Source: Phragmitibacter flavus
GTDB taxonomy: Bacteria > Verrucomicrobiota > Verrucomicrobiia > Verrucomicrobiales > Verrucomicrobiaceae
Assembly: GCF_005780165.1 (NCBI RefSeq)
Contig: NZ_VAUV01000004.1
Span: 186,001-250,000, forward strand
DNA length: 64,000 nucleotides
Direction of reading: 5' to 3'
Positions 1-19,544 of this stretch are shown piece after piece; position 1 is the first letter of the stretch, and each line of letters begins with the position of its first letter. A model generated the notes under the pieces. The model saw only the letters and a list, made by a program, of their open reading frames with translations. It did not search any database and was not told where the DNA came from. Position numbers and translations under genes: made by a program.

Positions 1-54
1 TGAGCCGCAAACAGTTCGTAGGCCGGGCAGCATTTAGACACTTGGAGGATGATG

Positions 55-873
55 ATGACGACACCACACTTGATAACTGAATCGAATCTCTCAACCGCAT
101 GGGCGCGTGCCTTTCTTCATGCTCATGATGGAGCAGAAGATGCTCTAGTCGTTGCCATTCGCGGTTTTGAGCAGGACATGCCCAATGAGGATGACGTGAT
201 TGCAAATGAACTTGATGCTCAATTGTCATGCCACGACATCCCTCGGATTGACCAAACAGCGCTGACCATCGTGCCATATGAGAAGTGGCTTCGGGAAGGC
301 AAAATTAGCATTGAACAGCTAACGGAATGGTATCTGCAATCTATGCTGCCAAGACTCAAGGCTAGATGCAGCAAGAACAGTCATGGAACCTATTTCGAGC
401 GATTCGTTGCTTTCTCAGGGACAAGACTCAACAAAAAGCGTTTAGAATACCGAACGATTAACCAGCTCAAATACGTCACTGATTTTTGGCGAAAAAAGGT
501 TGCTGGTAAGAACCGTTCCCGACCACGTCAGTCTGCTCTACAGTTAGCATGTTTTGATCCGGCGAAAGATGATACCGGCTCAGCTCTCTGCGGTTTCCCA
601 TGCCTTCAACAAGTTAGCTTCACCTACCATGAGGCAGGTTCCTTGGAGGTGACTGCATATTACCCAACCCAGTATCTATTTGATCGTGCATACGGAAACT
701 ATTTGGGACTCTGTCAGCTTGGGCATGTAGTAGCGCACTCTCTTGGTGGGAAACTCACGCGGTTTACATGCTTCACTGCACGACCCGAAGTGGGAAAGAA
801 GAAACCAGACCGGGCATTCATCAACATGCTCCGCAAGTATGTAGCCGAAAACTCTTTGGAGGCTGCACCATGA
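55..873 (+). CDS. Divergent thymidylate synthase-like protein
   Basis: The C-terminal half follows the thymidylate synthase (TS) core: a catalytic-cysteine loop (GFPCLQQ), a strand with F-T-Y-H-E, then a segment aligning with the nucleotide-binding region (YPTQYLFDRAYGNYLGL). The cysteine is kept. The Arg-Ser-x-Asp that holds the dUMP phosphate in classical TS is not recognisable here (Y-P-T-Q instead), so an ordinary dUMP methylation role is doubtful. Three ATGs stand in a row at 49, 52 and 55. The one at 55 has the best spacing from the GGAGG at 44-48. The stop overlaps the next start (ATGA, 870-873), so the gene is translationally coupled to the kinase. With the second TS homologue at 2553 it may form a heteromeric or two-step base-modifying pair. 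That last point is inference. Confidence 0.65.
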   Translation: MTTPHLITESNLSTAWARAFLHAHDGAEDALVVAIRGFEQDMPNEDDVIANELDAQLSCHDIPRIDQTALTIVPYEKWLREGKISIEQLTEWYLQSMLPRLKARCSKNSHGTYFERFVAFSGTRLNKKRLEYRTINQLKYVTDFWRKKVAGKNRSRPRQSALQLACFDPAKDDTGSALCGFPCLQQVSFTYHEAGSLEVTAYYPTQYLFDRAYGNYLGLCQLGHVVAHSLGGKLTRFTCFTARPEVGKKKPDRAFINMLRKYVAENSLEAAP

Positions 874-1478
874 CGCTAACAACCAAAGGCCAACTCTTTG
901 TATTCGAAGGCGTTGATGCCGCAGGCAAGTCCTCGATTAGCGCTCGATTTGTTGATTGGCTTCGCAGCCAAGGCAAGACAGCTGAACCCTTTTCGTTTCC
1001 GGGCAATTTTCCCGGCACAATTGGTGACCTTGTATATCGGATTCATCACGATCGCGCAGCCTTTGGACTGGATCCCCTCACTGAGTCGAGTCTGCAGACG
1101 CTTCACATTGCCGCTCATCTTGATGCAATCGAGGCACGAATCATTCCAAGCCTAGAAGCTGGCAAAACTGTGATTCTAGACCGTTACTGGTGGTCAACAA
1201 GGGTCTATGGCGTGGTGGGAGGAGCGCGGGCGGAGGTGCTCGATAAACTCATTGAGGCAGAGCAAATCGCATGGGGGGATTGGCTTCCAACCGCGTTGTT
1301 TTGTATCGGAAGATCCACCCCATTGAGAGATGAACCTCTGGATCGCTGGTCTCGATGGAAGGACGGCTACGACGCGATGATTCGGAAAGAATCAGGCCGT
1401 TACCCGATCCATTCAATCCAGAACGAGAGCAGCATAGAAGAGTGCCTCTCTGAGATCACTAGCTGTTGCCCAATCTAG
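870..1478 (+). CDS. Thymidylate kinase-like P-loop nucleotide kinase
   Basis: About 202 residues, typical for the dTMP kinase family. The N-terminal P-loop (FEGVDAAGKSS, about residues 12-22) matches the thymidylate kinase signature. A SFPG motif follows about 25 residues later and an LDRYWWS motif (family DR-Y substrate-binding motif) lies mid-protein. The family phosphorylates dTMP to dTDP. In this operon it more likely acts on a modified thymidine monophosphate made by the flanking TS homologues (inference). The start overlaps the stop of the upstream gene and has a TTGGAGG ribosome-binding site at 856-862. A housekeeping tmk is less likely because of the neighbours. A truncated paralogue lies on the other strand at 4466-4638. 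Confidence 0.75.
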   Translation: MTLTTKGQLFVFEGVDAAGKSSISARFVDWLRSQGKTAEPFSFPGNFPGTIGDLVYRIHHDRAAFGLDPLTESSLQTLHIAAHLDAIEARIIPSLEAGKTVILDRYWWSTRVYGVVGGARAEVLDKLIEAEQIAWGDWLPTALFCIGRSTPLRDEPLDRWSRWKDGYDAMIRKESGRYPIHSIQNESSIEECLSEITSCCPI

Positions 1479-1480
1479 GC

Positions 1481-2575
1481 ATGAAACGAAAACAGCAAGA
1501 CAAAGCGTTTGATCAGCAGGAAATGCTGATCCTTCCGCCATCTCCGATTATCCCCACCCTAGAAGCGGGTGATTTTGGATTTTTGCGCCCCCTGAAGGTG
1601 TCCCGTGTATTCAGCTCCTACTGGCGCTTTGCAGCGGAGAGGCAACGGGTGTTCCTCCGGCGCATTCGTGGCGCGAGTCCCCCATGGAGTGATGATCCGG
1701 TTCTTCAGATTCACAAATTCACCAACGCTTACCGCGCTTCGGACAGAGTTAGCCAATACCTCATCCGCCGAGTTATTTACGATAAAGAGCACAATCTGCG
1801 AGATACTTTTTTCAGAATCCTCTTGTTTAAAATCTTCAACAGGATCGACACTTGGGAACTGTTGGAAGGTGAGTTCGGCAAAGTGTCACTCGATAATTAT
1901 TCGTTCAAAAGTTATGATCGCGTGCTCTCGGAAGCGATGGCAAAAGGCGAGCGGCTATATTCTCCGGCCTATATTATGCCCTCTGGCGGCCGATCCTCCG
2001 AGTATGCCCGCAAGCATCAGATGCATCTTCGCCTACTGGAGCGTATGATTGAAGATGAGCTTCCAGAGCAGCTATCAGAAGCACCGACAATGGCCCGCAG
2101 CTTCGAATTGATCCGTGAATATCCATCGATTGGAGACTTCTTGGCATATCAATATGTAACGGATATCAACTACAGTCAGATTACGGATTTCCGAGAAACT
2201 GAATTCGTTGTTCCTGGGCCAGGGGCCCGTGACGGAATTAAGAAATGTTTCACTGACTTCGGTGGATTAACAGAACCCGAGATCATTAAGTTCATCGCGA
2301 AACGACAAGACGAGTGCTTCTCTGCCGTTGGTGTATCATTCCCGACACTCTGGGGGCGACGGCTTCAACTCATTGATTGCCAGAACTTGTTTTGTGAAGT
2401 GGACAAGTATGCCCGAGTTGCTCATCCCGAGATCTTAGGGATATCAGGCCGCACTCGGATCAAGCAAAAGCTGAAACCGACGTCTGAGCCACTCCAACTT
2501 TTTTATCCTCCAAAGTGGGGAATTAATAACCTACTAAACGCGGATCCTGAATATGTTCCAAACCCTAGAAGCTAG
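1481..2575 (+). CDS. HMUDK_hel-like putative DNA-base hypermodification protein
   Basis: A protein of 364 residues resembling the family annotated as 5-hmdU DNA kinase helical domain or alpha-glutamyl/putrescinyl thymine pyrophosphorylase (ADDT). Recognised segments are the N-terminal FSSYWRFAAERQRVF..R, IHKFTNAYRASDRVSQYL, FFRILLFKIFNRIDTWELL, a central block FLAYQYVTDINYSQ, the glycine-rich VPGPGARDGI and a C-terminal cysteine-containing DCQNLFCEVDKYAR. In phages with hypermodified thymine this fold acts on hydroxymethyl-uracil in DNA. Its role in a bacterial operon is unknown. A TTG at 1466 would extend the frame, but the ATG at 1481 lies just past the upstream stop. The 3' end overlaps the next gene by 23 bases, supporting one transcript. 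Confidence 0.6.
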   Translation: MKRKQQDKAFDQQEMLILPPSPIIPTLEAGDFGFLRPLKVSRVFSSYWRFAAERQRVFLRRIRGASPPWSDDPVLQIHKFTNAYRASDRVSQYLIRRVIYDKEHNLRDTFFRILLFKIFNRIDTWELLEGEFGKVSLDNYSFKSYDRVLSEAMAKGERLYSPAYIMPSGGRSSEYARKHQMHLRLLERMIEDELPEQLSEAPTMARSFELIREYPSIGDFLAYQYVTDINYSQITDFRETEFVVPGPGARDGIKKCFTDFGGLTEPEIIKFIAKRQDECFSAVGVSFPTLWGRRLQLIDCQNLFCEVDKYARVAHPEILGISGRTRIKQKLKPTSEPLQLFYPPKWGINNLLNADPEYVPNPRS

Positions 2576-3554
2576 AACAGCAAACGATTTATGGAAGCAG
2601 GCCGCGGAATGGTTTCGGCAAGACGATAAATCCGTGAGGCAAGCCAGTCGCAATGGCCCGACACAAGAGGTGATGAATGTCGCACTCTCACTTCAATACC
2701 CTCGCCAGCGATGGATTGCGGCGCGAGTTCCGGCGATGAATCCTGCTTTTGCTATCGCCGAAGTGGTCTGGATTGTGTCCGGTCGAAACGATTCGGCGAT
2801 GCTCAACTATTTCAATGCCGTCTTGCCTCGATACGCCGGTGAAGGAACAACTTACCATGGAGCTTATGGCCATCGGATACGCTCCAGTTTCGGAGTCGAT
2901 CAGTTAGAGCGGGCATACCATGCGCTTTCAGCCAAATCGGATTCAAGGCAGGTGGTGCTTCAAATCTGGGATTCGCGGATAGACCTGCCAAGTGAGAACG
3001 GCTCCGAAGCAAGCAAAGATGTTCCGTGTAATGTTTGCTCGCTGCTCAAAGTTCGCGACGGGAAACTGGAATGGACTCAGATCATGCGAAGTAACGATCT
3101 TTTTCGTGGGTTCCCACATAATGTTATTCAATTTAGTTCGCTTCAGGAAATACTCGCCGGATGGCTGAAAGTGGAGGTTGGTGCCTATCATCATTATAGC
3201 GACAGTCTTCACCTGTATGATCAAGATGGGGATGTGGCGTCTCATTTCGAAGACATCAGCAGTCCCGACAATGAAGACACTTTGAGCTTGGTGAAGTCAG
3301 AATCAGACGCTGCTTTTCTCATGCTTGGACAGCTTTGTGACTTTTGTGCGAATACTGAGCGATCCTCTGATGAGGTATTTAATCATGTTTCCAACCTGCA
3401 CCTACCAGCAGGACACGCAAATCTGGCACGAGTATTGGCTGCCGATGCTTTGAGACGCAGGAATGCATTTGGCCAAGCTCAAGAGGTCATGCAACAATGC
3501 ACCAATCCGTGCCTGCGTTTTATGACGCAACGCTGGTTCTCCAAGCCGCGATGA
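2553..3554 (+). CDS. Thymidylate synthase family protein (possible dUMP hydroxymethylase)
   Basis: A 333-residue TS homologue with recognisable core motifs: the active-site loop D-V-P-C-N-V, the nucleotide-binding R-S-N-D-L-F-R-G-F-P-H-N, the helix VIQFSSLQEILAGWL and the terminal Y-H-H-Y-S-D-S-L-H-L-Y. The catalytic Cys and the RSND motif are present. The residue after the Cys is Asn where classical TS has His. This PCN-type clade is common beside base-modification genes and could transfer a hydroxymethyl rather than a methyl group (inference). The start overlaps the upstream gene. It is the last gene of the operon; debris follows. Confidence 0.75.
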   Translation: MFQTLEARTANDLWKQAAEWFRQDDKSVRQASRNGPTQEVMNVALSLQYPRQRWIAARVPAMNPAFAIAEVVWIVSGRNDSAMLNYFNAVLPRYAGEGTTYHGAYGHRIRSSFGVDQLERAYHALSAKSDSRQVVLQIWDSRIDLPSENGSEASKDVPCNVCSLLKVRDGKLEWTQIMRSNDLFRGFPHNVIQFSSLQEILAGWLKVEVGAYHHYSDSLHLYDQDGDVASHFEDISSPDNEDTLSLVKSESDAAFLMLGQLCDFCANTERSSDEVFNHVSNLHLPAGHANLARVLAADALRRRNAFGQAQEVMQQCTNPCLRFMTQRWFSKPR

Positions 3555-3649: not shown

Positions 3650-3990
3650 CCGGTTCCAACGGTGGAAGCAGCGCACGCTTGAAGCCGCACTCGCAGTGGA
3701 CCAAGACAGCTGTGTGTTTTGGCAAGTTGCACAGGATGTGCGGCTTAATTTTGTGCTCCTCCAATTCGGAAAGATTGGTCGATTGCCGCCCGCCCGAGCC
3801 GAGATCGAGATCGGCGTAGCCCAACGACAATGCCTTGCGAGACGCATCGCCACCCAAGCAGAGGTTCAACACGAGCAGCAAAGCTGGGCAGCCTTACGAA
3901 ACAGCCGGCACTACGGCACCGACTGGCGCTTCACCACCAAGGACGCACGCATCAAACTCAAACGACTCTACCCATCATCTCTGCTGGATT
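3650..3990 (+). pseudogene. Possible transposase remnant
   Basis: A stretch without an intact gene between the TS gene and the TIR fragment. In one plus frame the end reads TDWRFTTKDARIKLKRLYPS, which looks like the tail of a transposase of an IS family I cannot name safely. The upstream frame is weakly gene-like and has no ribosome-binding site. The break into TIR-homologous sequence follows immediately. I regard it as mobile-element debris that marks a rearrangement joint; identity is uncertain. Confidence 0.25.
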
Positions 3991-4460
3991 GAACCAATAG
4001 ATCGGGAGTCGTTAATCGCTGGGTCTCTTGACGAAGGCATCAATCGCGCCTTGGACGCGAGCGAATATCTGGTGGATTGCGTCTCCGTGAGCATTCCCGG
4101 CTCGCGATGGGTTACAGAGGAGATTGAACACTTTCTCAGCAAGGAAAACCGACCGCTCGAGCGGGTGTTGATCTGCCGGGGGGGTGCTAGCGCGGACAAT
4201 GATCCAGAGGGGGACGAGCGGGCCTCCGTCTGGATCGCCGCAATAAACAAGCGTTTGGGCCGAAAACCGCGTGAGCATTTGACGCCGGATTTGCGTGAGG
4301 AGTTCGTTGAGGATGCCACTGCCTCCGCGCTCAGCTTGCTGGCTCCCTTGGTTGGAATGGCGGACAAAGATACGCTGCTTGACCGCCGTGCCAGGTTTCT
4401 CGCCCGTTCGTGGAGGATCGCGGCATGGTTAGTGGTTATGTTAGTGGCGTCTGGTGGCCT
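3985..4460 (+). pseudogene. Truncated TIR-TM gene (paralogue of 29.0-30.8 kb)
   Basis: An internal fragment of a TIR protein, beginning at D-R-E-S-L-I-A-G-S-L-D-E-G and running to the start of a transmembrane helix. It matches the gene at 29033-30754 almost codon by codon: LDASEYLV, SRWVTEEIEHFLSKENRP, RVLICR, EGDERAS and HLTPDLREE all recur. The first strand with the FLSHSHKD motif is missing and the frame runs into unrelated sequence after about 4455. It keeps the W-x3-E context but has no start of its own. This is a broken duplicate, produced by recombination between the two sites or by loss of a second TIR operon. Confidence 0.8.
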
Positions 4461-4465
4461 GTGGA

Positions 4466-4638
4466 TCATGGTAAAGTTGATACACCATTGCTCCCAGTGT
4501 CCCAGGGGACATTCTAGGGAAGGATAAGAGCCGTGTATCCACACCGTGATTAACGAGCTCTTTTATATATTGACCACGCATTGTGGACTTGCCTGCCGCA
4601 TCAACGCCCTCAAATACAATAAGTCGTGGAACCTCCAT
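4466..4638 (-). pseudogene. Truncated thymidylate kinase-like fragment
   Basis: On the minus strand an ATG at 4638 opens MEVPRLIVFEGVDAAGKST, the P-loop of a thymidylate kinase, followed by LLSFPRMSPGTLGAMVYQLYHD. It then breaks off, reading a few foreign residues to a stop at 4441. It corresponds to the first 60 or so residues of the intact kinase at 870-1478 but is clearly diverged from it, so it is not a recent tandem copy. It abuts the TIR fragment end to end in opposite orientation, so the junction at about 4460 is a recombination joint. A second nucleotide-modification cluster may once have stood here. Confidence 0.75.
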
Positions 4639-4784
4639 GGGGCATTCTAACTCGAACGCTAGCTTCGTATGAATACGCCAGGACCGGAGGAAAATGCTCC
4701 GGATTCTCATTTGCCAATATCAACTTTACTGTTCCAATACACAAAACCTTGCATTTTTTCGAGAAAAGCCTAGGAAGTATAGTC

Positions 4785-5282
4785 ATGTCCACCGAATCGA
4801 CCCGGCGTCATGTCTTTATAAGTCATCATCACAAGGATGATGCGACGGTAGACAAGATGACAAAGTTGCTTGAAAAGCATGGTTCCGACACTCGGAACAG
4901 TTCAATTCGGGCGAAGCCAGCGAACCAGGAACGACTTGATCGAGGGCTCGTTAAAGCGGCCACAATTCAGCGCCTCCTTCGCATGAAGATGTCTTGGGCG
5001 GGAGCAGTGGTTGTCATCATCGGTAAGGAGACGCACTTACGCCCATGGGTGAATTGGGAGATTCAAGAGGCAGAACGGCAGGGAAAGCGCATTGTCGGGG
5101 TATGGGAAGAGGGTGGCAAGGATTACCAACTCCCGACAAATTTGGATGCATACGCTGATGCGATCGTTGGATGGCAAGCCGATCAAATTATGGGAGCGAT
5201 TGACGGGAAAATCAACAACTGGCGGAAGCCAGATGGCAGTTCGCCTCCTCCTAGGTCAATCAAACGGATAACTTGTCAATAG
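4785..5282 (+). CDS. ThsB-like TIR-domain protein (DUF1863 family)
   Basis: A stand-alone TIR protein of 165 residues. The first strand and loop read HVFISHHHKDD (residues 9-19); an RPWVNWEIQEAE motif holds Trp88 and the putative catalytic Glu92. The spacing, with a long insertion between strand one and the AGAVVVIIG strand, is that of Thoeris ThsB proteins, which make a cyclic-ADP-ribose-type signal from NAD+ on infection. The start at 4785 has TAGGAAG at 4771-4777; an upstream ATG at 4626 is in frame but would add unrelated residues. No ThsA with a SIR2 domain is adjacent. The next gene, 14 bases on, is Nmad2-like, so the pair may be an operon. Confidence 0.75.
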   Translation: MSTESTRRHVFISHHHKDDATVDKMTKLLEKHGSDTRNSSIRAKPANQERLDRGLVKAATIQRLLRMKMSWAGAVVVIIGKETHLRPWVNWEIQEAERQGKRIVGVWEEGGKDYQLPTNLDAYADAIVGWQADQIMGAIDGKINNWRKPDGSSPPPRSIKRITCQ

Positions 5283-5296
5283 TGCTTTTCTTAATC

Positions 5297-5917
5297 ATGA
5301 AATTATTTTCTTACGTAGTGGCACGAGACTTTGGCTTCGCTCCTAATCCTTTTTTTGGATTCTGCACGTTGGCCTGTTGCAAACCTGATATTCGGAGGAC
5401 TGCAGAAGTCGGCGATTGGGTTGCAGGAATTGGCTCAATGAAAAAGGGCCTCGGCTACCAGCTTGTTTATGCAATGAAGATCTCTGAGATCATAACCTTT
5501 AATGATTATTGGCGCGATTCGCGCTTCTTTCTTAAGCGACCCAAGTTCGACAGCTCCATTAAGCATTCTTACGGCGACAATATCTACCACAAAGATGCCC
5601 GAACAAATCGATGGATTCAGGAGGACTCTCATCACAGTCTTGAACGAGGAGAAACAAATGAAGCTAACCTTGATCGAGATACCGGTAGCACCGACAAGGT
5701 GATTATTTCAAAAAGGTTCGCCTATTGGGGACGGTTTGGTCCAGTTGTTCCACCCCAGCTCGAGAATCTTGACGGTCAGTCGATCTTCATTCGAACCTCT
5801 GCACACAAGTGCAAATTCACTGATGAATTTGTGCGCTCCTTTGTCGATTGGTTCGAGTCTTTTGGAGACCAAGGAGCCTGCGCCCCTCCAGGTGATTGGC
5901 GTTTCAACCCCAAATAG
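5297..5917 (+). CDS. Nmad2-like putative nucleotide-modification-associated protein
   Basis: A protein of about 206 residues beginning MKLFSYVVARDFGFAPNPF. It contains CTLACCKPDIRRTA, the strand VGDWVAGIGS, LVYAMKISEI and the block YGDNIYH...RWIQEDSHHS, ending near KFTDEFVRSFVDWF. These segments fit the family named nucleotide modification associated domain 2 (Nmad2), which has been linked by gene neighbourhood to base-modification and conflict systems. The biochemical activity is unknown to me. The ATG at 5297 is preferred over the in-frame upstream start because the family begins with this strand. It follows the ThsB-like TIR gene closely and lies in the same island as the TS/kinase operon, which fits the name. 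Confidence 0.55.
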   Translation: MKLFSYVVARDFGFAPNPFFGFCTLACCKPDIRRTAEVGDWVAGIGSMKKGLGYQLVYAMKISEIITFNDYWRDSRFFLKRPKFDSSIKHSYGDNIYHKDARTNRWIQEDSHHSLERGETNEANLDRDTGSTDKVIISKRFAYWGRFGPVVPPQLENLDGQSIFIRTSAHKCKFTDEFVRSFVDWFESFGDQGACAPPGDWRFNPK

Positions 5918-6184: not shown

Positions 6185-7740
6185 GTGAACACTTCTGAGC
6201 CAACGCCACAGCGCCGGTTCGCGGCGTTCATTTCCTACCGGCACCTCGACAACACCGACGAGGGTCGCCGATGGGCAGAGTGGCTGCACCATTGGATCGA
6301 AAGCTATCGTTTGCCACGCCGCTTATCGGCACCCTAGGCGAGTTCGGGGTGATCCCGCCGCGCGTGGCACCTGTATTTCGCGACGAATGGGAGCTGCGGG
6401 GCGGCGGCGATTTGAAAGCGCTGACTGAAGAAGGATTACGCGGCAGTGAATGCCTCATCGTGCAAATCGCATTATTCCCGTGTTGATTGAAGGCGAACCG
6501 GGCGCTGCCGAGGCCGCCCCCAGTGATCCGGTGCGCCGTGCGCGTGAATACTTGCCCGAGACTCTGCGGCTAGGCATTCGTGCAGCGGGTCCGCCCACTC
6601 CAGACGTTCTGCATCCTATCGATGAAACAGCGCCCTTTTGCGCTGACACCCTGCGACTTTCGCCCAAAGGGCACGCATGACATGGGTTATACCAATGCCG
6701 CTGCGTATCGGGAATAGCTGGAACGTTCAGGACTGTCTAAATCCCGGCTGCGCGACCTCGAAGAACGTTACGCCGATCGCCTCCGACTCGAAAGGTTGCG
6801 CATCATGTCGGGGCTGCTGGGCGTGAACCTCGACGAACTGAACCAACGCGATGCGGCGGAGTGCGCACGGCACTGGCGAAAGCTTTTCTTTCTCAGCGCC
6901 GCGGTAGTGGCGGTGATCGCGCTCCTTGGTGCAGCAACGTGGATGCAAAGTGATAGACGGCAGCATCTCCTCACCACCGCAAGCGAGCGCGATCACGCTG
7001 CGGCGGAGCAGGCGCTGGTGGAGGATGATTGGCCGCTGGCTGTCGCCTACCTGGATCGATCTTTGATCTATTGGCCCCAAAATCAGGATGCGGTCAGCCT
7101 GCTTTGGAGCTTACTGCGCTACAGACCGGCAGCGGACTCACTGGTGTCAAGGCAGCGCCATGAGTTGAATCAGCCAGTGCAAGGGCTGGCGTGGAGTCCG
7201 GATTCACAGCAATTGTTGGTGCGGCTTGCGGAAGGCGAATTGCGTGTGCTCAATGTAGCGGCGGGACAGTTCGTCGAGCCCGCGATCAACGTGGGGTAAA
7301 CGCCGCAAATCTATGAGTGGACGCGCGATGGAAGCGCGCTGCATTTCATCACCACGGAAGGGGCTGGTGGCGCGCCAGTCCGACGGGGAGTATCACCAGT
7401 TCATATGGCCGCCGCCACGGCGCGAACCTAGGCCGGGGAGCCTTTTAGTCCTGATAGAAAGCAGATCATCGCGCGGGCGAATGACGGAGCGATCTTCATT
7501 CTAGACGCGGTCACTGGCGAACCGGTCGTCGCTCTCGCGATCCCGTCGGGACTCGATTCAAATGCCATTCCGCGTGCAGCTTGGCGACCAGATGGTCGAG
7601 CTGTGCTCATCGAAACGCCTGTCGATTTTAGCGGACGCATGGGCTTGTTCTTTTCTTCGTTTGAAGATGCGACCGCCGCCTTGATGATTTCAGGCCGACG
7701 GCCAATCTCGCCCAATCTGGATTGCGAAGTCATCAATGGC
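6185..7740 (+). pseudogene. Decayed TIR-TM-beta-propeller gene
   Basis: A GTG at 6185 opens a TIR domain (RRFAAFISYRHLDN), but the frame shifts near 6320, again near 6450, and contains stops at about 6718 and 7297 and more beyond. Pieces read through in order: GEFGVIPPRVAPVFRDEWEL, then the strand IPVLIEGEPG, an RDLEERYADRLRLERLR linker, a transmembrane helix (FFLSAAVVAVIALLGAATWM, about 6885-6945) and WD40-like blades such as VQGLAWSPDSQQLLVRL and RAAWRPDGRAVLIETP. The original protein would have had the TIR-TM-propeller layout of the intact gene at 11643-13832. Homology stops where the serine recombinase remnant begins at about 7690-7740. Confidence 0.8.
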
Positions 7741-8190
7741 CCGCGCGGGATCATTGCGAAGGGAGCACGTCGCGGCCTTGCCATTCTTGCTGACGTTGTT
7801 GCGAGTGTAGTAGAGGTAAGGATTGAGGTCCCGGTCCTTCTTGCCGCCCGGTTTAGGTGTGAGGCGATGAACGCATTCTCCGCAGCGGATGATGCCCTTG
7901 AGCAGAGACCGATGGGTGTTGCGGTCTAGCAATGCCTGCTTGTGCTTCTGCCCTTTGCCGCTCAGCGCGTCATTGGCTTCCTGCCAGAGCTTTTCACTCA
8001 CCAGCGCCTCATGCTCGCCGGAATAGTCCTCTCCGTTGTGGTAAACGACTCCCTTGTACAGAGGATTGGTGACGATGACCTTGATTTTGTTCGGGATGGA
8101 CCGCTTGCCCCCTACAACCATTTCATTGCCCCGGCGACTCTTCACCGACCGTTCAGGGGTACGCAGCCCTTCTCGCTAAAAAGCTGGGAC
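7690..8190 (-). pseudogene. Large serine recombinase remnant (C-terminal part)
   Basis: On the minus strand, the recombinase domain reads VTNPLYKGVVYHNGEDYSGE and ends in a zinc-ribbon block (LLKGIIRCGECVHRLTP). This is the middle of a large serine recombinase such as those that insert phages and resistance elements. Upstream a stop interrupts the matching REGLRTPERSVKSRR stretch at about 8160. Downstream it ends abruptly inside the decayed TIR gene. The catalytic serine domain is absent, so it is inactive. Its placement suggests an insertion into, or deletion through, the TIR-propeller gene. Confidence 0.75.
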
Positions 8191-8191
8191 A

Positions 8192-9517
8192 TCACGGACA
8201 GCCTTCATCCTTCATAATCGCCTCAACGACATGGTTTGAAGTCATAAGCTCCTCCACGATCGCAGAGTCGGGAAAGAGGCAATTGCGGAAACTGCATCTT
8301 TTGAACCAATCACTTCGAATCAACCCCCGAAAACGGCATGACTCGAACACGACGTTATCAAACATAACCTCGTTTTCTGGGCTTCGGAAATTCATCGTCC
8401 CAGAAGGCGAGGGATCAGTACAATGAGAGATTACTGAGTTTGAGAACGAGCACACTTCACCGCCTACCACGACGGCGGAACTAGGATTTGATTTACGAGA
8501 AGCAAATCTGACGGCCCCAAAATTTTTAATCTGCATCACTCCACCGTCGAATGTGCAATTGGTAAAATCGCAGTCGATCATGTTGGTGTCCAGAAATCCT
8601 CCGCCGGAGAAAGAACAATTCAAAAACTTCGCTGAGGAAACGGCCATGTTTGGTGCGCTTCCCCAGATGACATTGCCAAAATAAACGCGCTGGAATTCTA
8701 CAGAATTCACCGAGCCAGACGCAAACGTCGTGTCCGACAAGGCATCATTCTGATAGACGCCCCCTTCCCATTTGCAGGACTTGAGAAACCATCGGCTTTT
8801 CCCGGGAACAGTGGATGCAGCAAGGATTTTGGCATTCAGCCTAACGTGCGTGTCCAATGCTTCGTTTTCGGCGTCCACGAGCAATTTACCCCTGAGTCTC
8901 TCGTCGCCCCTGAACTCTGTGCTTTTGGTGTGGAAAAATTCTTGGCCAAGCACTTTGCGCGCATTGCCTATGGTATTGAGGGTATTTTTCCGCGCCACCT
9001 CCCGAACAAATTCTGAAGTGAATGCCAGCAATCCTGAGGCAGCCAAGAGAAATCCACCAAACCCGGCACTCGCCGTTAGCCACTTTTTGCGAACAATTCG
9101 CCTACGCAGGACACGAAGTCGTTTATCGAGTGCGGCGTGGATTACGACTTCTCCCGCAACTTCCGGTACTTCGACGTATTGAGCTGCCGCGATCATGCCT
9201 GACAACGGCTCGGGAAGTGCGACTGGGCCGCCTTCATCCTTAAAGCGGATTGGAATGACCGGTCGTCCCGCCGAGTGCGCCAAGTAATATTCGGCATGGC
9301 ACCAGGAGCTATGGGCGTATCCAGGCGTAATGAGAGCAACGACGAGATCGCATTTCCGAAGTGCCTCCATGATGACAGTTTTAAATTCTTCACCAGCCAA
9401 TGTTTCCTCAGTATCCTGGAAAACGGTAAACCGTTCCCTCGATAGCTCGGACCTAAGTTGAGCGGCAACCCCGCAGCCGTCTGCGCGCGCATAGCTAAGA
9501 AATACCTTTGCCTTCAT
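8192..9517 (-). CDS. TIR-TM-pentapeptide-repeat-like protein
   Basis: A 441-residue protein. The TIR domain (residues 3-115) has VFLSYARADG at the start and SSWCHAEYYLA with putative catalytic Glu76. One transmembrane helix lies at about 147-166 (LTASAGFGGFLLAASGLLAF). From about 235 to 430 there are irregular repeats of the form xxFxxCxFxxxxF (for example LNCSFSGGGFLDTNMIDCDF), suggesting a right-handed beta-helix related to pentapeptide repeats. A TIR NADase coupled to a beta-helix across a membrane anchor is an effector-like design; the helix may sense a ligand or bind a target (inference). It follows the TIR-SLOG gene by about 20 bases on the same strand and is probably co-transcribed with it. 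Confidence 0.75.
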   Translation of the reverse strand: MKAKVFLSYARADGCGVAAQLRSELSRERFTVFQDTEETLAGEEFKTVIMEALRKCDLVVALITPGYAHSSWCHAEYYLAHSAGRPVIPIRFKDEGGPVALPEPLSGMIAAAQYVEVPEVAGEVVIHAALDKRLRVLRRRIVRKKWLTASAGFGGFLLAASGLLAFTSEFVREVARKNTLNTIGNARKVLGQEFFHTKSTEFRGDERLRGKLLVDAENEALDTHVRLNAKILAASTVPGKSRWFLKSCKWEGGVYQNDALSDTTFASGSVNSVEFQRVYFGNVIWGSAPNMAVSSAKFLNCSFSGGGFLDTNMIDCDFTNCTFDGGVMQIKNFGAVRFASRKSNPSSAVVVGGEVCSFSNSVISHCTDPSPSGTMNFRSPENEVMFDNVVFESCRFRGLIRSDWFKRCSFRNCLFPDSAIVEELMTSNHVVEAIMKDEGCP

Positions 9518-9537: not shown

Positions 9538-11574
9538 TTATTTGTCTGGAGTGACTGGCAAATCGAGTCGGCTCAGTCCTAGCAGAACGATCTCGATGAT
9601 CCGGCCCTGATCAATGGTTTCAAACAACTCAGTGTGTTCCTCTGTCGTAAGCAGCGGATTGATTCCCGACAGTCCTTTATCACGAATGAGGGCGACGATT
9701 TCTGGATAATCCAGCCATGGAACTCCGTGCTTTTGGTAAAGCGCTTTCATCTCGTCGGCGAAGGGGGCTCGCTTCTGATAGTCCCAGGTGGCTTCCTCCC
9801 TGTTTTCGCCCCGTAGCAGATCGATGACTAGCTTTGCGACTCCGCCAAACGCGCCGATCAGGAACACTGGCTGGCCCACTTGCACGGAAAGCACGATCTC
9901 CTCCAGAACGCCTGGGATGCGGCTCGCATACCATTGCTCCTTGCGTGTGCCATCTTCCAAGACCTTGACCGTAGGTCCAAAGGTGCCACCGACGACGATG
10001 CGAGCCACGACGCCACTTTGTGTGCGATCGGCCTGAAAGGCTCGCATCTCGGTCATGCCCCGAGCCCAGGCAAAACGATGCTCCGCCGATTTATCACCTG
10101 GGAAGAATTTTGGCTCTCGGGTAAAGTCGGAGTGTAAAGTTTCTTCCACTTCTGCTGGACGCGGCAGCTCCACGGTTTTCGACACTCGGTTGAGCGCAGA
10201 GAGATCTTTGACTGAAAGGCGCGGCAGCGGCCAGCCGCGGTGATTCACGATGCGTTCGAATGGCTGGACGCCCTCGACGCTATTATGCGTACGAACGAGC
10301 TCGAAGAGTTTCTGAGTGTAGCCTTCCGCGCCCAGGTGCCCGCCATAGGCGAGCGTCGCGCCTTTGATCAGCAAGTAGCGCGAGAGATCGAGCATACAGC
10401 TTTCGAGGTGCATAGCATCAAGACCGCATTCCGCGATGTCGGTGCTCTCGGACATGGAAAGCGAGACTGGCTGGCCGCGCAGCGACGGCGTGATAGCGAG
10501 CCGCTGAAAGGGCGTGGAGACCTTGATGCCAGCCTTTGCGAGCCGTTTCGCTTCGCTGACACCCACAGGCGGATCTGGATAGAGGATTTCAAGCTTCGGA
10601 TCCCTTCCCACTAGTGTCGCAAGCTCCGGCGGACGAGCGAAGATAAAATCACCTGGCTGCTTGAATTGTCCAAGGCGCACAAGATCATACAGTTGCCGGA
10701 GAGTTTCTTTGAGCAGAAGGTCGATGCCCTTTTGTGGGTCGCCGTCCCAGCGCAGACGGGGCACATTGCCTAGGTATGGGAAGCTGCGCACCTCATGGCC
10801 CGACAGCGCATCGACTACTACCACGGGTCGTTGGTGCTCTTTGGCAAGCAAGACTTCCTCGCGACACCATTCGCGTGTGGCATAGGTGTCGGTGAGCACG
10901 GCAAGCAGGGAGGACCGCTGGACGCCCCGCTCGATGGACTCGGCAAATCTCGACCCGCTAGCGATGTCCCCCGAATCCACCCAAGCCTCGACCGGCTGAT
11001 CAGCTTTCAGTGCGTCGATGAAGCATCGCGTTGCTTTAGGATCGCGGTCAATGTCTGCTTTTGCATGGCTGAGGAAAAGAGTGACCGGCACCTCGAACTC
11101 GCTGTTTTCCACCGCCTCCAGATTCGACAAGTAGCGGCACAGCTCGACCACAATCCGGCGCACGACGAAAGCGTCGCAGGCTTTTTTATCAGGTTGCAAG
11201 TGGGCTTTCGCGAAACTCAGGTCATTCAACCGCGGATCGAGGGGCCACGCGTCATGGGAAAGCTGGATGGGCACGAAACGCCAGGCGGGAGGCTGCGCCT
11301 GCGTGCACACGTCTGCCATGAACTGACACCATTCGTCGTCGATATTCAGTTGGTCATCCGCGAGCACGACCAGGAAATTGCGCTCCGCAAAATCGAGGTG
11401 CAATGACGGCGGGGGACGATTCCCTTTTTTGGTTGGACAAAAGACGGTCGGCACACGGAGTCCAGGGACAAGAATGTCGCCGTTTAGTTGCTGATGAATG
11501 TGGCAAGCCAGTTCGCAGGCGGATGTGGACTTGGGATGAAAGAGGAGATGGACGAGTAAGGGCTGGCGTTTCAT
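9538..11574 (-). CDS. TIR-SLOG fusion protein
   Basis: A 678-residue protein with three parts. The N-terminal 150 residues look like a degenerate TIR-like Rossmann domain (FLVVLADDQ, WCQFMADV). A canonical TIR follows at 162-290 (VTLFLSHAKADID; TREWCREEVLLAK with putative catalytic Glu240). From about 330 onward is a SLOG-type domain (LYPDPPVGVSE; TLAYGGHLGAEGYTQKLFEL; VFLIGAFGGVAKLVIDLL), the nucleotide-ligand fold used by ThsA to bind TIR-made signals. Having producer and sensor folds in one chain suggests a self-activating NADase (inference). The first domain lacks a clear catalytic Glu. It is related in layout to the gene at 32147-34663. Confidence 0.8.
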   Translation of the reverse strand: MKRQPLLVHLLFHPKSTSACELACHIHQQLNGDILVPGLRVPTVFCPTKKGNRPPPSLHLDFAERNFLVVLADDQLNIDDEWCQFMADVCTQAQPPAWRFVPIQLSHDAWPLDPRLNDLSFAKAHLQPDKKACDAFVVRRIVVELCRYLSNLEAVENSEFEVPVTLFLSHAKADIDRDPKATRCFIDALKADQPVEAWVDSGDIASGSRFAESIERGVQRSSLLAVLTDTYATREWCREEVLLAKEHQRPVVVVDALSGHEVRSFPYLGNVPRLRWDGDPQKGIDLLLKETLRQLYDLVRLGQFKQPGDFIFARPPELATLVGRDPKLEILYPDPPVGVSEAKRLAKAGIKVSTPFQRLAITPSLRGQPVSLSMSESTDIAECGLDAMHLESCMLDLSRYLLIKGATLAYGGHLGAEGYTQKLFELVRTHNSVEGVQPFERIVNHRGWPLPRLSVKDLSALNRVSKTVELPRPAEVEETLHSDFTREPKFFPGDKSAEHRFAWARGMTEMRAFQADRTQSGVVARIVVGGTFGPTVKVLEDGTRKEQWYASRIPGVLEEIVLSVQVGQPVFLIGAFGGVAKLVIDLLRGENREEATWDYQKRAPFADEMKALYQKHGVPWLDYPEIVALIRDKGLSGINPLLTTEEHTELFETIDQGRIIEIVLLGLSRLDLPVTPDK

Positions 11575-11642: not shown

Positions 11643-13832
11643 TCACAATCCACCAGGCTGCGGTGTCGTGTCATGTTTCGGCAGCGGATATTGTTCTAGA
11701 ATCATCTGGGCAGGCTTCTGTGCGGGGATGAGGTCTGTTTGACGGGATGGCGTCGCGGGTGGAGCAGGGGGGCCGACTTTCCAAATGAGCAGGCGCTCTG
11801 GCTTGTCTTCGGAGTTTACTTCGAAGGAAGCCGCAAGCCAGTGGCCGGCGTCGTCGGTATAGACGTGGTCAAGACGGGAGTCGGGGGCTGCTGCTGCCGG
11901 TGGCAATTCCACGCCGATTCGGAACACAGGTTTCGCTTTCCTGATGAGCACGACTTCGTAATCTGTGGCCGCCGCCAGAGTGAAGACGTCGTTCTGCGGA
12001 ACCGGCGCTAAACTGGCCGCACGAACCCCACGCAATACGCCTACCGGAGGGCGGGCTGTAACGACGAAATCTGGGAAAAGGAGCGCCCGCAAATCGCCGC
12101 CATCCACACGATAGTATGCTTCGAAAGGTTGGTGAGCTGGAAGCGGCCACACCTTGGCAATCATAGACTCCATCAAAAGCGGCGGGCGGTAGCTCGCAGT
12201 ATCGAGAGCCAGCCAGAATTCCCGGCCGGACCGCCTGGGCGTGCCGCCGAAAAAGTTAAACGTCGTGATTCTCAGGAAGATTTGTGCATCTCCGGGCGAG
12301 AGTTCGAAAGTTTCCAACTCAGGACTCGTCACCGGCCCGATTTCTGTCATGGGCAACTCAAACTGCCGCGCTGCTGGTTTGGGTTGGAGATTAAGTCCCC
12401 AAGTCACCACTCCGACTTTGTATTCGGTGAACCGGCGCCATACGGCGACGGCGAGAGTATCATCTCTGGTGCTGAGCCGGAAAATCGCCTCGCCAAAACG
12501 GTCGGTACCATCTGGCTCGGTTTCGGGTGTTGGCAGATCGACTGGCAGTTTCAACTCCGTGCGTGATTCGATATTCAGCGTCACGGGATCGAGTAGGAAA
12601 ACTTGCGGCGGACGCTCCACCCCAGCAAGCACGCAGAGTCGTCCGGCCTTCCAGGCCATCTCCACCTGTGGCGGAAAACTTGCCAGTTGATAAGAGGTCA
12701 ACTTCAAATCCACTTCACGGCGCGGCTCTCCATTGTGGGGGATGCGAGTGATTTTTCCCGCTGCGTGAACATAGATCGCGTCCGGGTGGAAAAGCACCCT
12801 CGGATTGAAATCGTCACCTGTAGGAACCGTCTTGCGCCAGCCGTGCTGATCAATGAGTGCAACAAGTCCGTTACTGGCCTCCGAATCATGCATACGATAG
12901 CCGACTACTCGCCATTCGCCCCCGGAAGAGCCCACCGCGTGCGTGCGCCAACCAGGCGGCAGCTTGATGTCCGCCGCTGGAGTGAGAAGCCGCTGATTTC
13001 TGGCCTGCTGCCACTTCGAGCGTAGCTCCTCCTTCCCCCAAGGCGCCAGCCTGGCCGCCTCCTGCCAAAGTTCTTCTGCCTCCATGAAACGCAAACTGGT
13101 TTCAGCTGATCGTGCGTTGCCTGCGATCGTAAGCCGTCGCTGCGCCACATCATGCGCCCACCAAGCCCCAATGCATGAGGTCAACAACAGGCAGCAAGCG
13201 GTGATGCCGGTCTGAATCATTCGCGTGCGCTGCCGCACCGCACTGAAGGCAGATCGGATTTCATCTACCGCATGCAGGCGATTGGGATTTCCCTCAACAG
13301 AGGCCAAAGCTTCGGTCCAAATCTGACTTGCCCGATATGACTCACGGCCAGTGATCGCTTCCAAAACATGAATCGAAGGACTGCCGGCCAGTTCTGCGCC
13401 GGGGAGTTCGAAAACGCCTTTGTGCTGGGCCAGCCGTTTCAGACGATTGGGCAAATTATTTGGTGTATTCGGTAGAAAGAAGATCGTTTGAATGCGTGGT
13501 TCCCGGCGGCGAGCAAAATGCCAATCGACTTCATCAAAGATCCACGGCGCTTCACGCTCGTTCACGGCCTTTGGAGTGATCACAACCAGATGCAGTTGGC
13601 AGCGACGAATTTCGCGCTGGATGCGCGCGCGAAATGCCTGGCCACCTTGGATGCTGGTGTGATCGAGAAAAACCAGGTACTTGTTTTCTAGTGCTCGGCA
13701 GAGTTCGTGGGCATAAGCTTCCCCGTCACGTCTTGTGTAGGTGATGAAGATATCGTAGCCGAACAGCCTCTGCCAGGCGGCTTCCAGAATTCTTCGAGCA
13801 ACCCCAATGCCAATCATATCGCTGCACCACAT
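11643..13832 (-). CDS. TIR-TM-beta-propeller-like protein
   Basis: About 729 residues from the ATG at 13832, chosen because GGAGAATT precedes it. The open frame extends upstream to 14036, but that part looks like intergenic debris. The TIR domain starts at YDIFITYTRRDGEAY and carries APWIFDEVDWHF with putative catalytic Glu near 101. A transmembrane helix follows (TGITACCLLLTSCIGAWW, about 205-225), then an EAEELWQEAARLAPW helical hairpin and a long C-terminal region of beta-rich repeats compatible with a propeller. It is the intact counterpart of the decayed gene at 6185-7740. It is transcribed in the same direction as the TIR-SLOG gene with a 68-base gap. Inner-membrane anchoring with a cytoplasmic TIR is the likely topology. 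Confidence 0.75.
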   Translation of the reverse strand: MWCSDMIGIGVARRILEAAWQRLFGYDIFITYTRRDGEAYAHELCRALENKYLVFLDHTSIQGGQAFRARIQREIRRCQLHLVVITPKAVNEREAPWIFDEVDWHFARRREPRIQTIFFLPNTPNNLPNRLKRLAQHKGVFELPGAELAGSPSIHVLEAITGRESYRASQIWTEALASVEGNPNRLHAVDEIRSAFSAVRQRTRMIQTGITACCLLLTSCIGAWWAHDVAQRRLTIAGNARSAETSLRFMEAEELWQEAARLAPWGKEELRSKWQQARNQRLLTPAADIKLPPGWRTHAVGSSGGEWRVVGYRMHDSEASNGLVALIDQHGWRKTVPTGDDFNPRVLFHPDAIYVHAAGKITRIPHNGEPRREVDLKLTSYQLASFPPQVEMAWKAGRLCVLAGVERPPQVFLLDPVTLNIESRTELKLPVDLPTPETEPDGTDRFGEAIFRLSTRDDTLAVAVWRRFTEYKVGVVTWGLNLQPKPAARQFELPMTEIGPVTSPELETFELSPGDAQIFLRITTFNFFGGTPRRSGREFWLALDTASYRPPLLMESMIAKVWPLPAHQPFEAYYRVDGGDLRALLFPDFVVTARPPVGVLRGVRAASLAPVPQNDVFTLAAATDYEVVLIRKAKPVFRIGVELPPAAAAPDSRLDHVYTDDAGHWLAASFEVNSEDKPERLLIWKVGPPAPPATPSRQTDLIPAQKPAQMILEQYPLPKHDTTPQPGGL

Positions 13833-14039
13833 AATTCTCCAGTCTATGTCTGTCAACCTGGCTGCGACGTATCGACCGTCAGTCGACGTCCGTTCTGCTG
13901 GAACTAGTCTAAGAGCCTGTTGAAAACAGAGCCGGGATCCGAACTGGCCGGAATATTGGTCCGCTAACTGGTAATACTTCGCTCTAGGGGATAGAGCGGG
14001 GCATAGCGGATTTTTCCGGCCCGCGCTGTCAGGCACGCT

Positions 14040-14661: not shown

Positions 14662-16587
14662 ATGAAACTCGCCACCCTCCGACTCACCAACTTCCAATGC
14701 TTCGGCCCCGAAACCCAGGAAATCTCCTTTGAAGACTCGACCACAATGATCATAGGGCCGAATGGATCGGGGAAAACCGCAATCCTTCAAGCACTCAGCC
14801 GCATGTTCGACGCGAACCCGGGACGACGAAGCGTTAAAGCTGATGATTTCCATGTGGGGATCGATGAAGAGGAGCCACCAGAAGAACGCAGCTTCACAAT
14901 CGAAGCCGACTTCCTTCTGCCGGAGGCAGGAACCGACAGCGGCGCGAATGCGATTCCTCCATGCTTCAATCACATGAGGCTGGATGAGGCAGGAGAGGTT
15001 CTCAAAGTTCGCTTTCGATTGGCGGCGACGATGGGACCCAACGGAGACATCGCCGATTCTCTTTCTTACGTTGTCGGCAAGGAAGGCAATGGCGAGGACA
15101 AGATAAGGGGCGTCCCTCGTACTGACCGGAACAACATCGCGGTCTATTATCTGCCAGCTCGGCGCGATCCAAATGATCACATCCGCTCAAGCACCACTTC
15201 ACTTCTGGGGCGCATCGTCCGGGCCGTAGATTGGCAGAAAGAGGCTGAGGATTACAAGGAATCCGTTTCCGAACTTCAGGCACTCATTGAGGCCAACCCT
15301 GCCGTGAAAGCCACCAGCAAAAGTATCTCGAAGAGCTGGGCGGCGCTTCACAAGGGAAGCCATTTCAAGGATGCCGCAATTACGTTCGGAGCGGACAGCC
15401 TCGAAAAGCTAATTCAGAACTTCTCCGTCCAGTTCAATCCGGCCCACGCTTCGAAGACCATCGACTATTCCCTCCTAAGCGACGGCCAGAAATCCTTGCT
15501 GTATCTGTCTCTCGTCTCGGCCTACATTGAGATTGGCCGCAAGGCTATGGCTCAGGAAACCGGTGAGGAACTGGGTATTGATCTGGACAAACTGAACCCC
15601 CCGGTTTTCTCGATCATTGCGGTTGAAGAGCCCGAGAACAGCTTGTCGCCCCACTACCTCGGGAGGATCAACAAGTTGCTCGCGAAAACCTGTTCGGCTA
15701 CCGATGCCCAGGCTATCGTCACGACCCATGCTCCATCGATGCTCCGTAGAATAGAGCCGGAGCACATTCGCTTCGCCAGGCTCGGCACCGAGCGAACGGC
15801 TTCAGTGAAGCAGATTGAACTGCCTCCGGAGACTGAGATGGACGCCCACAAATTCGTCCGTGAGGGCCTCCTTTCCAACCCCGAAATCTACTTCGCCCGG
15901 ATGGTGATTCTTGGCGAGGGAGCGAGCGAGGACATTGTGCTCCCCAAGCTCTTCGAAGCACGCAAGCTGCCGTTGGATGAAAACGGTATCGTGCTGGCTC
16001 AATTGGGCGGTCGCCACGTGAACTATCTCTGGAAAATTCTCTCGGATCTCAGAATTCCCCATGCGACGTTACTTGACCTAGACTTGGCCCGCTATCACGG
16101 AGGCTGGGGGCGCATCAAATACGCAAAGGATCAGTTGGCGAAGGTCGGAGTGGATGTCGGGAAGGCTACTTTGCCGAAATGGAATGCTTCAAGTCCACTT
16201 GGAAAAGATTCCGACTATGGACTGAAATGGTTGGGGTTCCTCGGAGATAAGGGGGTTTTCTTCTCACAGCCGCTAGACCTCGACTTTAGCATGAGTCAGG
16301 CATTCCCCGAATCATATGGACTGGACACCAGAGATCAAGAGCAACCGGATGACGTGACCATCAAGTCAGTTCTCGGGAACAGCCACGCCGACGATACTTG
16401 GTATTCCAAAACTCTAAAAAAGGGCTTCGATGATTATCACCGGCTGTTCAAGGTAGGCAGCAAACCGACAGCTCACATTGAGGCACTCTCAAACCTCGAC
16501 CTTGATGAGATTGATGCGGATCTTCCCGAACAGTATCGCGAACTGATCGCCTATGTGTCAGAGAAACTGAAGGAGGTCTTTGAGTGA
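14662..16587 (+). CDS. gajA: Gabija GajA-like OLD-family ATPase/nuclease
   Basis: A 641-residue OLD-family protein: ABC-type ATPase plus a C-terminal TOPRIM nuclease. The Walker A is GPNGSGKT (residues 32-39), the signature SLLSDGQKSLLYLSL lies near 270, Walker B is FSIIAVEEPENSLSPHY and the H-motif IVTTHAPSML. The TOPRIM part has VILGEGASEDIVLPKLF and the metal-binding LLDLDLARYHGG. GajA forms a tetramer that nicks DNA when nucleotide levels drop during phage replication. The stop overlaps the start of gajB (GTGA), the standard two-gene Gabija order. A lone OLD nuclease is ruled out by that neighbour. Confidence 0.88.
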   Translation: MKLATLRLTNFQCFGPETQEISFEDSTTMIIGPNGSGKTAILQALSRMFDANPGRRSVKADDFHVGIDEEEPPEERSFTIEADFLLPEAGTDSGANAIPPCFNHMRLDEAGEVLKVRFRLAATMGPNGDIADSLSYVVGKEGNGEDKIRGVPRTDRNNIAVYYLPARRDPNDHIRSSTTSLLGRIVRAVDWQKEAEDYKESVSELQALIEANPAVKATSKSISKSWAALHKGSHFKDAAITFGADSLEKLIQNFSVQFNPAHASKTIDYSLLSDGQKSLLYLSLVSAYIEIGRKAMAQETGEELGIDLDKLNPPVFSIIAVEEPENSLSPHYLGRINKLLAKTCSATDAQAIVTTHAPSMLRRIEPEHIRFARLGTERTASVKQIELPPETEMDAHKFVREGLLSNPEIYFARMVILGEGASEDIVLPKLFEARKLPLDENGIVLAQLGGRHVNYLWKILSDLRIPHATLLDLDLARYHGGWGRIKYAKDQLAKVGVDVGKATLPKWNASSPLGKDSDYGLKWLGFLGDKGVFFSQPLDLDFSMSQAFPESYGLDTRDQEQPDDVTIKSVLGNSHADDTWYSKTLKKGFDDYHRLFKVGSKPTAHIEALSNLDLDEIDADLPEQYRELIAYVSEKLKEVFE

Positions 16588-18335: not shown

Positions 18336-19544
18336 ATGAGTGATCCAGCGCTGATATATACCGATATCTCGCAGCCTGCAGACAAGGCAGGGACCCATGT
18401 GCTCATCATCGGAGTGGGGGACTACCTATTCGGCAAGGGCAAGGCGGAAGTCACGTCGGTGGGTGATGATCTCCAGCAACTGAGTTCACCGCCCATCTCC
18501 GCGCGCGCCATGGCGGACTGGTTCATCAAACACTATCGCAACACCGCCAAGCCTCTAGCCAGCGTGGCGATGCTGCTGTCTGAGAGTCCGGATGCAGATT
18601 ATCAAGTTCCCGGGCAGAGTGACTCCGGGCAGAGTGACTCTGCCCCCCCCGGCCTCGTGCGCGTGCCCCGGGCCAATCTGGCAAACGTGGTCGAGGCCAC
18701 CAAGGCGTGGGTGGAGCAGCTGAAGAGTAACAGGGATCACATGGCCGTCTTCTATTTCTGCGGGCATGGTTTTTCCGCAGGGGATCACGCCTCACTGCTG
18801 CTGGAGGATTTCGGCAAGACAGGCGGCGAGTTGGAGGCTGCCATCGACCTCACCAAGTTGTGCGCCGTTATGAAAAACTCTCCGGCGATCCAGCAGGTTT
18901 TCCTTCTGGATTGCTGCCGAAGCGACGTCGACCGTAAGTATGAAGGCAATGTCCCCATCGGCTCGGGCATGGTGAGCATCCTCAAATTTGAGCGTGGTCA
19001 CTCCTCCGCACCTCAACAGTTTGTACTGTTTCCGACAATCGATGGGGCGGAAGCTTTCGGAGTCAAAAACAAGGTCAGTGTCTTTAGCAAGTCGATACTG
19101 GACGCACTGAGCTTCGCCGCCGCCGATGCCAAGACAGGACCCTGGAAGACGACGACTGGCAATCTGCTGACTGAAGTGACCCGCTTGGTAAATTTGCGCC
19201 TGCCGCCTCAGTTTCTCGATCGAGGCAAGCCGAATGCGTTGGACGCCTCCTCTTTTGAGTTCAACGAGATCGACATTCCTATCGTGACCCGCTCCTTCGT
19301 CACACTGTCAGACCTCGGCGCGTGGAAAGCTGCCGAACTGCAATGCGCGCACGGAAAAGGCACCGAGCCTACCCAGAGCCAGCGTGGCTCGGACAGCGGT
19401 GTGGAGAACTGCTGCAAGTTCGATCTTTCCTCCGATACATGGCTGTTCAGCGGTACTCTGCCTCCAGATCAATCCCTAACTATTTCACCCCAGACGCGGT
19501 ACCTGACTCCGCCGGTGGCCTATGTGACCTTGAAAGTGCAATGA
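18336..19544 (+). CDS. Caspase-like (C14) cysteine protease
   Basis: A 402-residue protein with a caspase-fold domain at about 20-290. The N-terminal strand reads THVLIIGVGDY, the catalytic histidine sits in YFCGHGFSAGD (His144) and the cysteine in VFLLDCCRSDV (Cys193/194). A 15-base unit is duplicated in frame at 18611-18640 (GQSDS twice). The roughly 100-residue C-terminal tail may be a binding domain. Bacterial caspases act as death effectors in several defence systems. The stop overlaps the start of the next gene (ATGA at 19541-19544), and an MBL-fold gene follows, so the three form an operon. It may share a transcript with gajAB, but a 102-base gap leaves that open. Confidence 0.85.
   Translation: MSDPALIYTDISQPADKAGTHVLIIGVGDYLFGKGKAEVTSVGDDLQQLSSPPISARAMADWFIKHYRNTAKPLASVAMLLSESPDADYQVPGQSDSGQSDSAPPGLVRVPRANLANVVEATKAWVEQLKSNRDHMAVFYFCGHGFSAGDHASLLLEDFGKTGGELEAAIDLTKLCAVMKNSPAIQQVFLLDCCRSDVDRKYEGNVPIGSGMVSILKFERGHSSAPQQFVLFPTIDGAEAFGVKNKVSVFSKSILDALSFAAADAKTGPWKTTTGNLLTEVTRLVNLRLPPQFLDRGKPNALDASSFEFNEIDIPIVTRSFVTLSDLGAWKAAELQCAHGKGTEPTQSQRGSDSGVENCCKFDLSSDTWLFSGTLPPDQSLTISPQTRYLTPPVAYVTLKVQ

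Follow-up and report, generated by a model that had tools for sequence, protein, structure and literature searches.

The locus and its operon

The DNA analysed here is a stretch of 64,000 nucleotides from Phragmitibacter flavus (GCF_005780165.1, NZ_VAUV01000004.1, positions 186,001-250,000 of the forward strand), which we call the window. It comes from a host genome of 5.9 Mb in 44 contigs. At the start of the window lies an operon of enzymes resembling those with which phages modify thymine, and we consider whether this operon may be an anti-phage system. A preliminary description, made from the window's letters, had reported four overlapping or nearly touching genes here: two thymidylate synthase (TS) homologues, a thymidylate kinase-like enzyme and an HMUDK_hel-like protein. 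Inspection of the open reading frames bears this out. All four genes are on the plus strand (49 or 55-873, 870-1478, 1466 or 1481-2575 and 2553-3554), and neighbours overlap or are 2 bp apart.

The same description had proposed a single transcript for the four genes. This transcript probably begins before the window and includes three more genes. Upstream coordinates are given on L003, a sequence that takes in the 10 kb before the window; subtracting 10000 from an L003 position gives the position in the window. The first of the three is an acyl carrier protein (ACP)-like gene (L003 8579-8866), followed by an XRE repressor gene (L003 8882-9217) that overlaps the gene of an ImmA/IrrE (M78) metalloprotease (+ strand; PF06114, E 4.5e-10). 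The 3' end of the protease gene occupies window positions 1-80, where it overlaps gene 1, and the remainder lies at L003 9214-10080.

The thymine-type enzymes

Gene 4 (TS4, 2553-3554, +) belongs to the TS superfamily (PF00303, E 1.6e-19, 70.6 bits against a cut-off of 24.3), but it scores below the curated ThyA cut-offs (53 bits against 327, and 82 against 174.55). It has PCN in place of PCH and an intact RSND; both are invariant in 21 aligned rows, as is a uracil-type Asn. The closest solved relative is MilA, a CMP 5-hydroxymethylase (E 4e-28, as against about 1e-9 for ThyA). The best phage relatives are TS-like genes of Kuttervirus, one of them annotated as a deoxyuridylate hydroxymethyltransferase, and identity to the Kuttervirus dUMP hydroxymethyltransferase is 32%. 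Because of this kinship and the uracil-type Asn, we infer from sequence that TS4 is a dUMP 5-hydroxymethylase. A duplication of the housekeeping thyA was considered and rejected: thyA lies on a different contig (PF00303, E 2e-120), gene 4 is the sole other PF00303 match in the genome, and it is nearer to the hydroxymethylases.

The product of gene 2 (870-1478, +) is a P-loop kinase that matches the thymidylate kinase family (PF02223, E 9e-13) and appears to be a diverged thymidylate kinase (TMK). It reaches 47.5 bits with the dTMP kinase equivalog TIGR00041, below the cut-off of 83.25. Arg74 of the E. coli TMK, a residue that contacts the base, aligns with a His in the gene 2 family.

Gene 3 (1481-2575, +, with an alternative TTG start at 1466) matches the HMUDK_hel family very strongly in a profile search (PF18723, E 4e-108, 361 bits against a gathering score of 25). 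An AlphaFold model built with 42 relatives in the alignment has a pLDDT of 89. Foldseek found nothing for this model at E below 0.001. The top structural match is the phage 5-phosphomethyl-dU glycinyltransferase (PUGT, 8z2n; 234 residues at 4.0 A) with a VIA Z of 11.2, which for this mostly helical model is under the level that the tool considers safe; the kinship with PUGT was not detected by sequence and concerns the fold. The next matches are the queuine salvage enzyme DUF2419 and the HhH DNA glycosylases. The model does not have a kinase fold, so the Pfam name ‘DNA kinase, helical domain’ is misleading. In phage PAE1 a PF18723 protein is found near a TS and a separate 5-hydroxymethyl-deoxyuridine (5-hmdU) DNA kinase (PF18748). 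Given these fold matches and the separate kinase, PF18723 is better seen as handling the base in partnership with a kinase, rather than as itself a kinase.

Gene 1 (TS1, 55-873, +) is divergent on the profile level: there is no Pfam match, PF00303 included, and the match to TIGR03283 is weak (E 1e-5). The AlphaFold model (pLDDT 93.7) nevertheless has the TS fold, with a Foldseek E of 2.8e-8 to TS and VIA Z scores of 16.8 to the TS-like dCMP enzyme 9iqc, 15.1-16.2 to MilA and 14-15 to ThyA. The Pro-Cys pair is kept, with P182 and C183 invariant across 55 rows. N215 is an Asn close to where TS has its uracil-binding Asn; RSxD is missing. The modelled fold and the invariant Cys place gene 1 in the TS superfamily, although the Pfam profile does not recognize it. 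A prophage remnant was rejected as an origin for the operon: a search of 50,697 phage records gave nothing for gene 1, a single viral contig matched it, and the best-scoring phage relative of HMUDK_hel is 34.5% identical.

The motifs of the two TS homologues and the families of genes 2 and 3 are thus as the preliminary description had them. It had named a gene 3 lacking the HMUDK_hel fold, and a grouping of the TS genes with thyA, as grounds for abandoning its reading; neither TS homologue groups with thyA, and gene 3 has the domain.

Conservation and spread of the cassette

A scan of a collection of species genomes gave 573 relatives. The 80 most similar were analysed, which are not an unbiased sample, and the loci were scored with profiles made for this analysis. 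Full flanks were available for 72 loci. Among these, ACP is found in 63, XRE and ImmA/IrrE in 65 each, TS1 in 66, MazG in 49, AcpS (holo-ACP synthase) in 36, TMK in 34, Dcd (dCTP deaminase) in 28 and TS4 in 26. In all 76 loci that hold the five genes, the order is ACP-XRE-ImmA/IrrE-TS1-HMUDK_hel on a single strand. This identity is far beyond chance, and the loci concerned span about 12 phyla. A variant is seen in Rhizobium ruizarguesonis (L122), where a papain-family peptidase gene (4040-4690) separates ImmA/IrrE from a split TS1.

TS4 is present in 25 of the 34 full-flank loci with TMK, as against 1 of the 38 without, and loci tend to have either TS4 or MazG; in the tree, the contrast between TMK/TS4 and MazG partly tracks descent. 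In 21 loci, TMK and HMUDK_hel form one fused protein. A protein of 168-260 aa with no assigned family adjoins Dcd near the cassette in six loci (e.g. L004 3658-4161 and L088 6627-7406).

Carriers are sparse: they make up 6 of 68 genomes in the host's own family and 4 of 298 genomes in a Pseudomonas family. Across the host phylum, an evenly drawn set of 388 genomes has HMUDK_hel in 11 and TS1 in three, all three within the 11. When the window's own genome is left out, both TS1 genomes are among the 10 HMUDK_hel genomes of 387 (chance probability about 6e-4). Copies lie on conjugative plasmids in Rhizobium, Sinorhizobium, Nostoc and Allocoleopsis. The strict conservation over some 12 phyla, together with rarity within each, implies that the cassette must be both useful and transferable; it is widespread and mobile, and very probably conflict-related.

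What is strangest about the cassette is the pairing of a carrier protein with an activating enzyme of its own. The ACP-like protein of the window copy has 95 aa and scores 18.2 bits with PF00550, whose gathering score is 20.8; the Ser to which phosphopantetheine would be attached is invariant in 77 of 77 relatives. The catalytic D/E of AcpS is kept in 41 of 41, and no AcpS was detected in the 20 kb examined around the window copy. The HExxH of ImmA/IrrE is about 99% conserved in 82 relatives. Neighbour clustering found no recurrent acyl-AMP ligase, PLP enzyme or acyl-loading enzyme in the cassette. TS-fold enzymes make an exocyclic methylene intermediate, and thiols can trap this intermediate. 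Since no acyl-loading enzyme recurs and such an intermediate could be trapped, the second substrate might be the phosphopantetheine thiol of holo-ACP, to which TS1, HMUDK_hel or both would couple an activated 5-methylene-deoxyuridine. The result would be a modified nucleotide tethered to the carrier, acting as an immune signal or weapon. This is a speculative idea that we regard as quite improbable. In the literature searched, we found nothing relevant on a carrier protein in phage defence or a carrier-protein version of this operon, nor any link between carrier-protein chemistry and thymine modification.

A linked TIR-Nmad2 module and a defence island

The genes of a ThsB-like TIR protein (4794-5282, +; PF08937, E 5e-19) and an Nmad2 protein (5273-5917, +; PF18753, E 7.5e-67), which overlap each other, lie 1.2 kb downstream of the operon. 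TIR and Nmad2 occur together in all nine full-flank loci that hold either. TS1 is present in four of these nine and missing from five, as against 62 of the 63 others with TS1. The TIR-Nmad2 pair partly replaces the ACP/TS1 module, as if these were two alternative outputs of one core; the window has both. The TIR protein has a Trp-Glu pair that is invariant in 18 relatives. A TIR-SLOG (LD_cluster2) protein is encoded further downstream (9538-11574, -; PF18163, E 1.5e-55), with relatives in six TIR-Nmad2 loci (L024, L044, L045, L070, L132 and L137); it could be a nucleotide receptor.

Other genomes show further combinations. On a Gloeothece plasmid, HMUDK_hel-MazG-TIR-Nmad2 follows a CapV-like phospholipase; the order in Parabacteroides is TIR-Nmad2-HMUDK_hel-radical SAM. 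On plasmids of Cupriavidus (L136 6001-8426) and Mesorhizobium (L137 6001-8434), TIR-Nmad2-MazG is followed by a uracil-DNA glycosylase that replaces HMUDK_hel. These loci are a sister system without HMUDK_hel.

The setting of the operon is a defence island. A complete-looking Gabija system, GajA-GajB (14662-18233; E 3e-222 and 2e-203), is followed by a caspase-like gene (18336-19544). Upstream, a 1650-aa protein has a HerA/DndH/mad8-like C-terminal ATPase (L003 71-5023). More TIR-like proteins are encoded at 8192-9517, with pentapeptide repeats, and at 11643-14036. By eye, an open reading frame at 3835-4527 resembles a 5'-truncated TIR protein, probably decayed, and a serine recombinase-like fragment at 7690-8145 (-) looks like a mobile-element trace.

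Two remnants flank the operon. The first is of a second thymidylate-kinase-like gene (4453-4626, -; 57 aa matched at 46% identity, E 5e-14). The second is what is left of MazG/MazG_C just before the ACP gene (L003 7642-8266, some 1.7-2.4 kb ahead of the window); it is interrupted by a stop and lacks about 110 residues. The window copy has neither Dcd nor an intact MazG; ACP, XRE, ImmA/IrrE, genes 1-4, TIR and Nmad2 all have open reading frames.

What the operon may do

The preliminary description had proposed a pathway to a modified thymidine nucleotide. That guess at the chemistry, for a thymidine or deoxyuridine nucleotide, is well supported by homology, with TS4 closest to 5-hydroxymethylases. 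What it lacked were the three upstream genes, the family spanning about 12 phyla and the island with TIR, Nmad2 and Gabija. Phage-type thymine enzymes, an ACP and a protease-controlled switch sit among anti-phage genes, and for this reason we think of a probable immune system. In its specific form, our proposal is that of a mobile anti-phage operon whose product is a deoxyuridine nucleotide modified in the phage manner, which we judge about evenly balanced between right and wrong.

TS4 would hydroxymethylate dUMP to 5-hmdUMP, and the TMK-like kinase would add a phosphate to this product, at the nucleotide itself or at its 5-hydroxymethyl group. HMUDK_hel, with a glycosylase fold and a kinship to the hypermodification transferases of phages, may then act on the activated base, whether this is free or part of DNA. 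MazG and Dcd, found in many relatives, could replenish the dUMP/dUTP pool or keep it clean. The product would be passed to either output module: ACP/TS1 under the control of XRE and ImmA/IrrE, or TIR-Nmad2 with or without TIR-SLOG. On infection, ImmA/IrrE may cleave the repressor. The unusual nucleotide would serve as a signal for immunity or as a poison.

The DefensePredictor study (2026, PMC13092281), which tested E. coli operons, reports protection against phages for systems that have TS and 5-hmdU-kinase domains, and it counts a thymidylate synthase and a 5-hydroxymethyluracil kinase among the domains for which a defence role was newly validated; a figure legend there names TS, dNMPk, 5hmdUk and NMAD. 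These domain names equal the TMK-HMUDK_hel-TS4-Nmad2 of the window, and one of the systems may hold all four.

Several points weigh against our proposal. It is built on gene content and order, conservation, predicted folds, patchy spread and setting, for an operon known from its sequence. MazG is reduced to a remnant in the window copy. Gene 2 has no match to the dedicated 5-hmdU DNA kinase family PF18748, matching only PF02223 and, weakly, PPK2. The P values are inflated, as the relatives are the best 80 of 573 and the TMK/TS4-MazG contrast is partly by descent. The legend alone does not prove that the four named domains share one validated system, and blastn DNA searches gave no E. coli relative.

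Alternatively, the operon could mark DNA, by hypermodifying thymine in the host's or plasmid's own DNA in the manner of phages M6 and ViI, for self recognition or resistance to restriction. TS4, the kinase and HMUDK_hel fit the phage order from hmdU through phospho-hmdU to a substituted base, HMUDK_hel is similar to DNA glycosylases as well as to a transferase for 5-PmdU in DNA, and several copies are on conjugative plasmids. Yet neighbour clustering found no cognate restriction gene that recurs in the cassette, TS4 is missing from 46 of the 72 relatives, and a protease-controlled repressor with a TIR link suits an inducible response better than constant marking. We consider DNA marking unlikely.

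Nucleotide poisoning or depletion is also, in our view, an improbable explanation. Here Dcd, MazG and TS4 would divert dCTP, dUTP and dUMP, and the phage would starve or take in a lethal base, which HMUDK_hel (or, in other loci, a uracil-DNA glycosylase) would then attack. The frequency of Dcd (28 of 72 loci) and MazG (49 of 72) and the exchange of HMUDK_hel for a uracil-DNA glycosylase in Cupriavidus and Mesorhizobium are as this idea would have it, but it leaves ACP, AcpS and TS1 unexplained and sits poorly with a window copy that has no Dcd and no intact MazG. Very unlikely is a sensor that recognizes hmdU-type bases or nucleotides made by modified phages and triggers TIR or ACP-TS1 effectors: it is favoured by the homology of HMUDK_hel and TS4 to hypermodification enzymes of phages and by the linked SLOG and Nmad2 domains, but a sensor would have no need to bring along a hydroxymethylase and a kinase whose active sites are conserved.

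If the operon does make an immune nucleotide, bacteria would be turning the phages' own DNA-modifying chemistry against them. As the two output modules are exchangeable, the intermediate nucleotide is directly testable.

Comparison with known systems

Parts of these gene neighbourhoods may reportedly have been described by Iyer in 2013 and Burroughs in 2015. The linked TIR protein is of the ThsB type known from Thoeris (PADLOC ThsB, E 7e-57); unlike in Thoeris, it pairs with Nmad2 and a core of thymine enzymes. MilA is the nearest solved enzyme to TS4, which in contrast has a uracil-type Asn, making dUMP the expected substrate. In the DefensePredictor main text (PMC13092281) the term ‘acyl carrier’ is absent, whereas the operon of the window has an ACP-like gene.

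The likeness to phage pathways noted in the preliminary description holds in that the thymidine hypermodification clusters of Yuavirus (M6/PAE1) and Kuttervirus (ViI) share a TS-family hydroxymethylase, a kinase and PF18723 with the operon. It does not extend to the kinase: that of phage PAE1 matches PF18748, while gene 2 does not and is thymidylate-kinase-like. Unlike the phage clusters, the operon is bacterial and mobile and has no phage genes, and it adds ACP, AcpS, TS1, XRE and ImmA/IrrE to what they contain.

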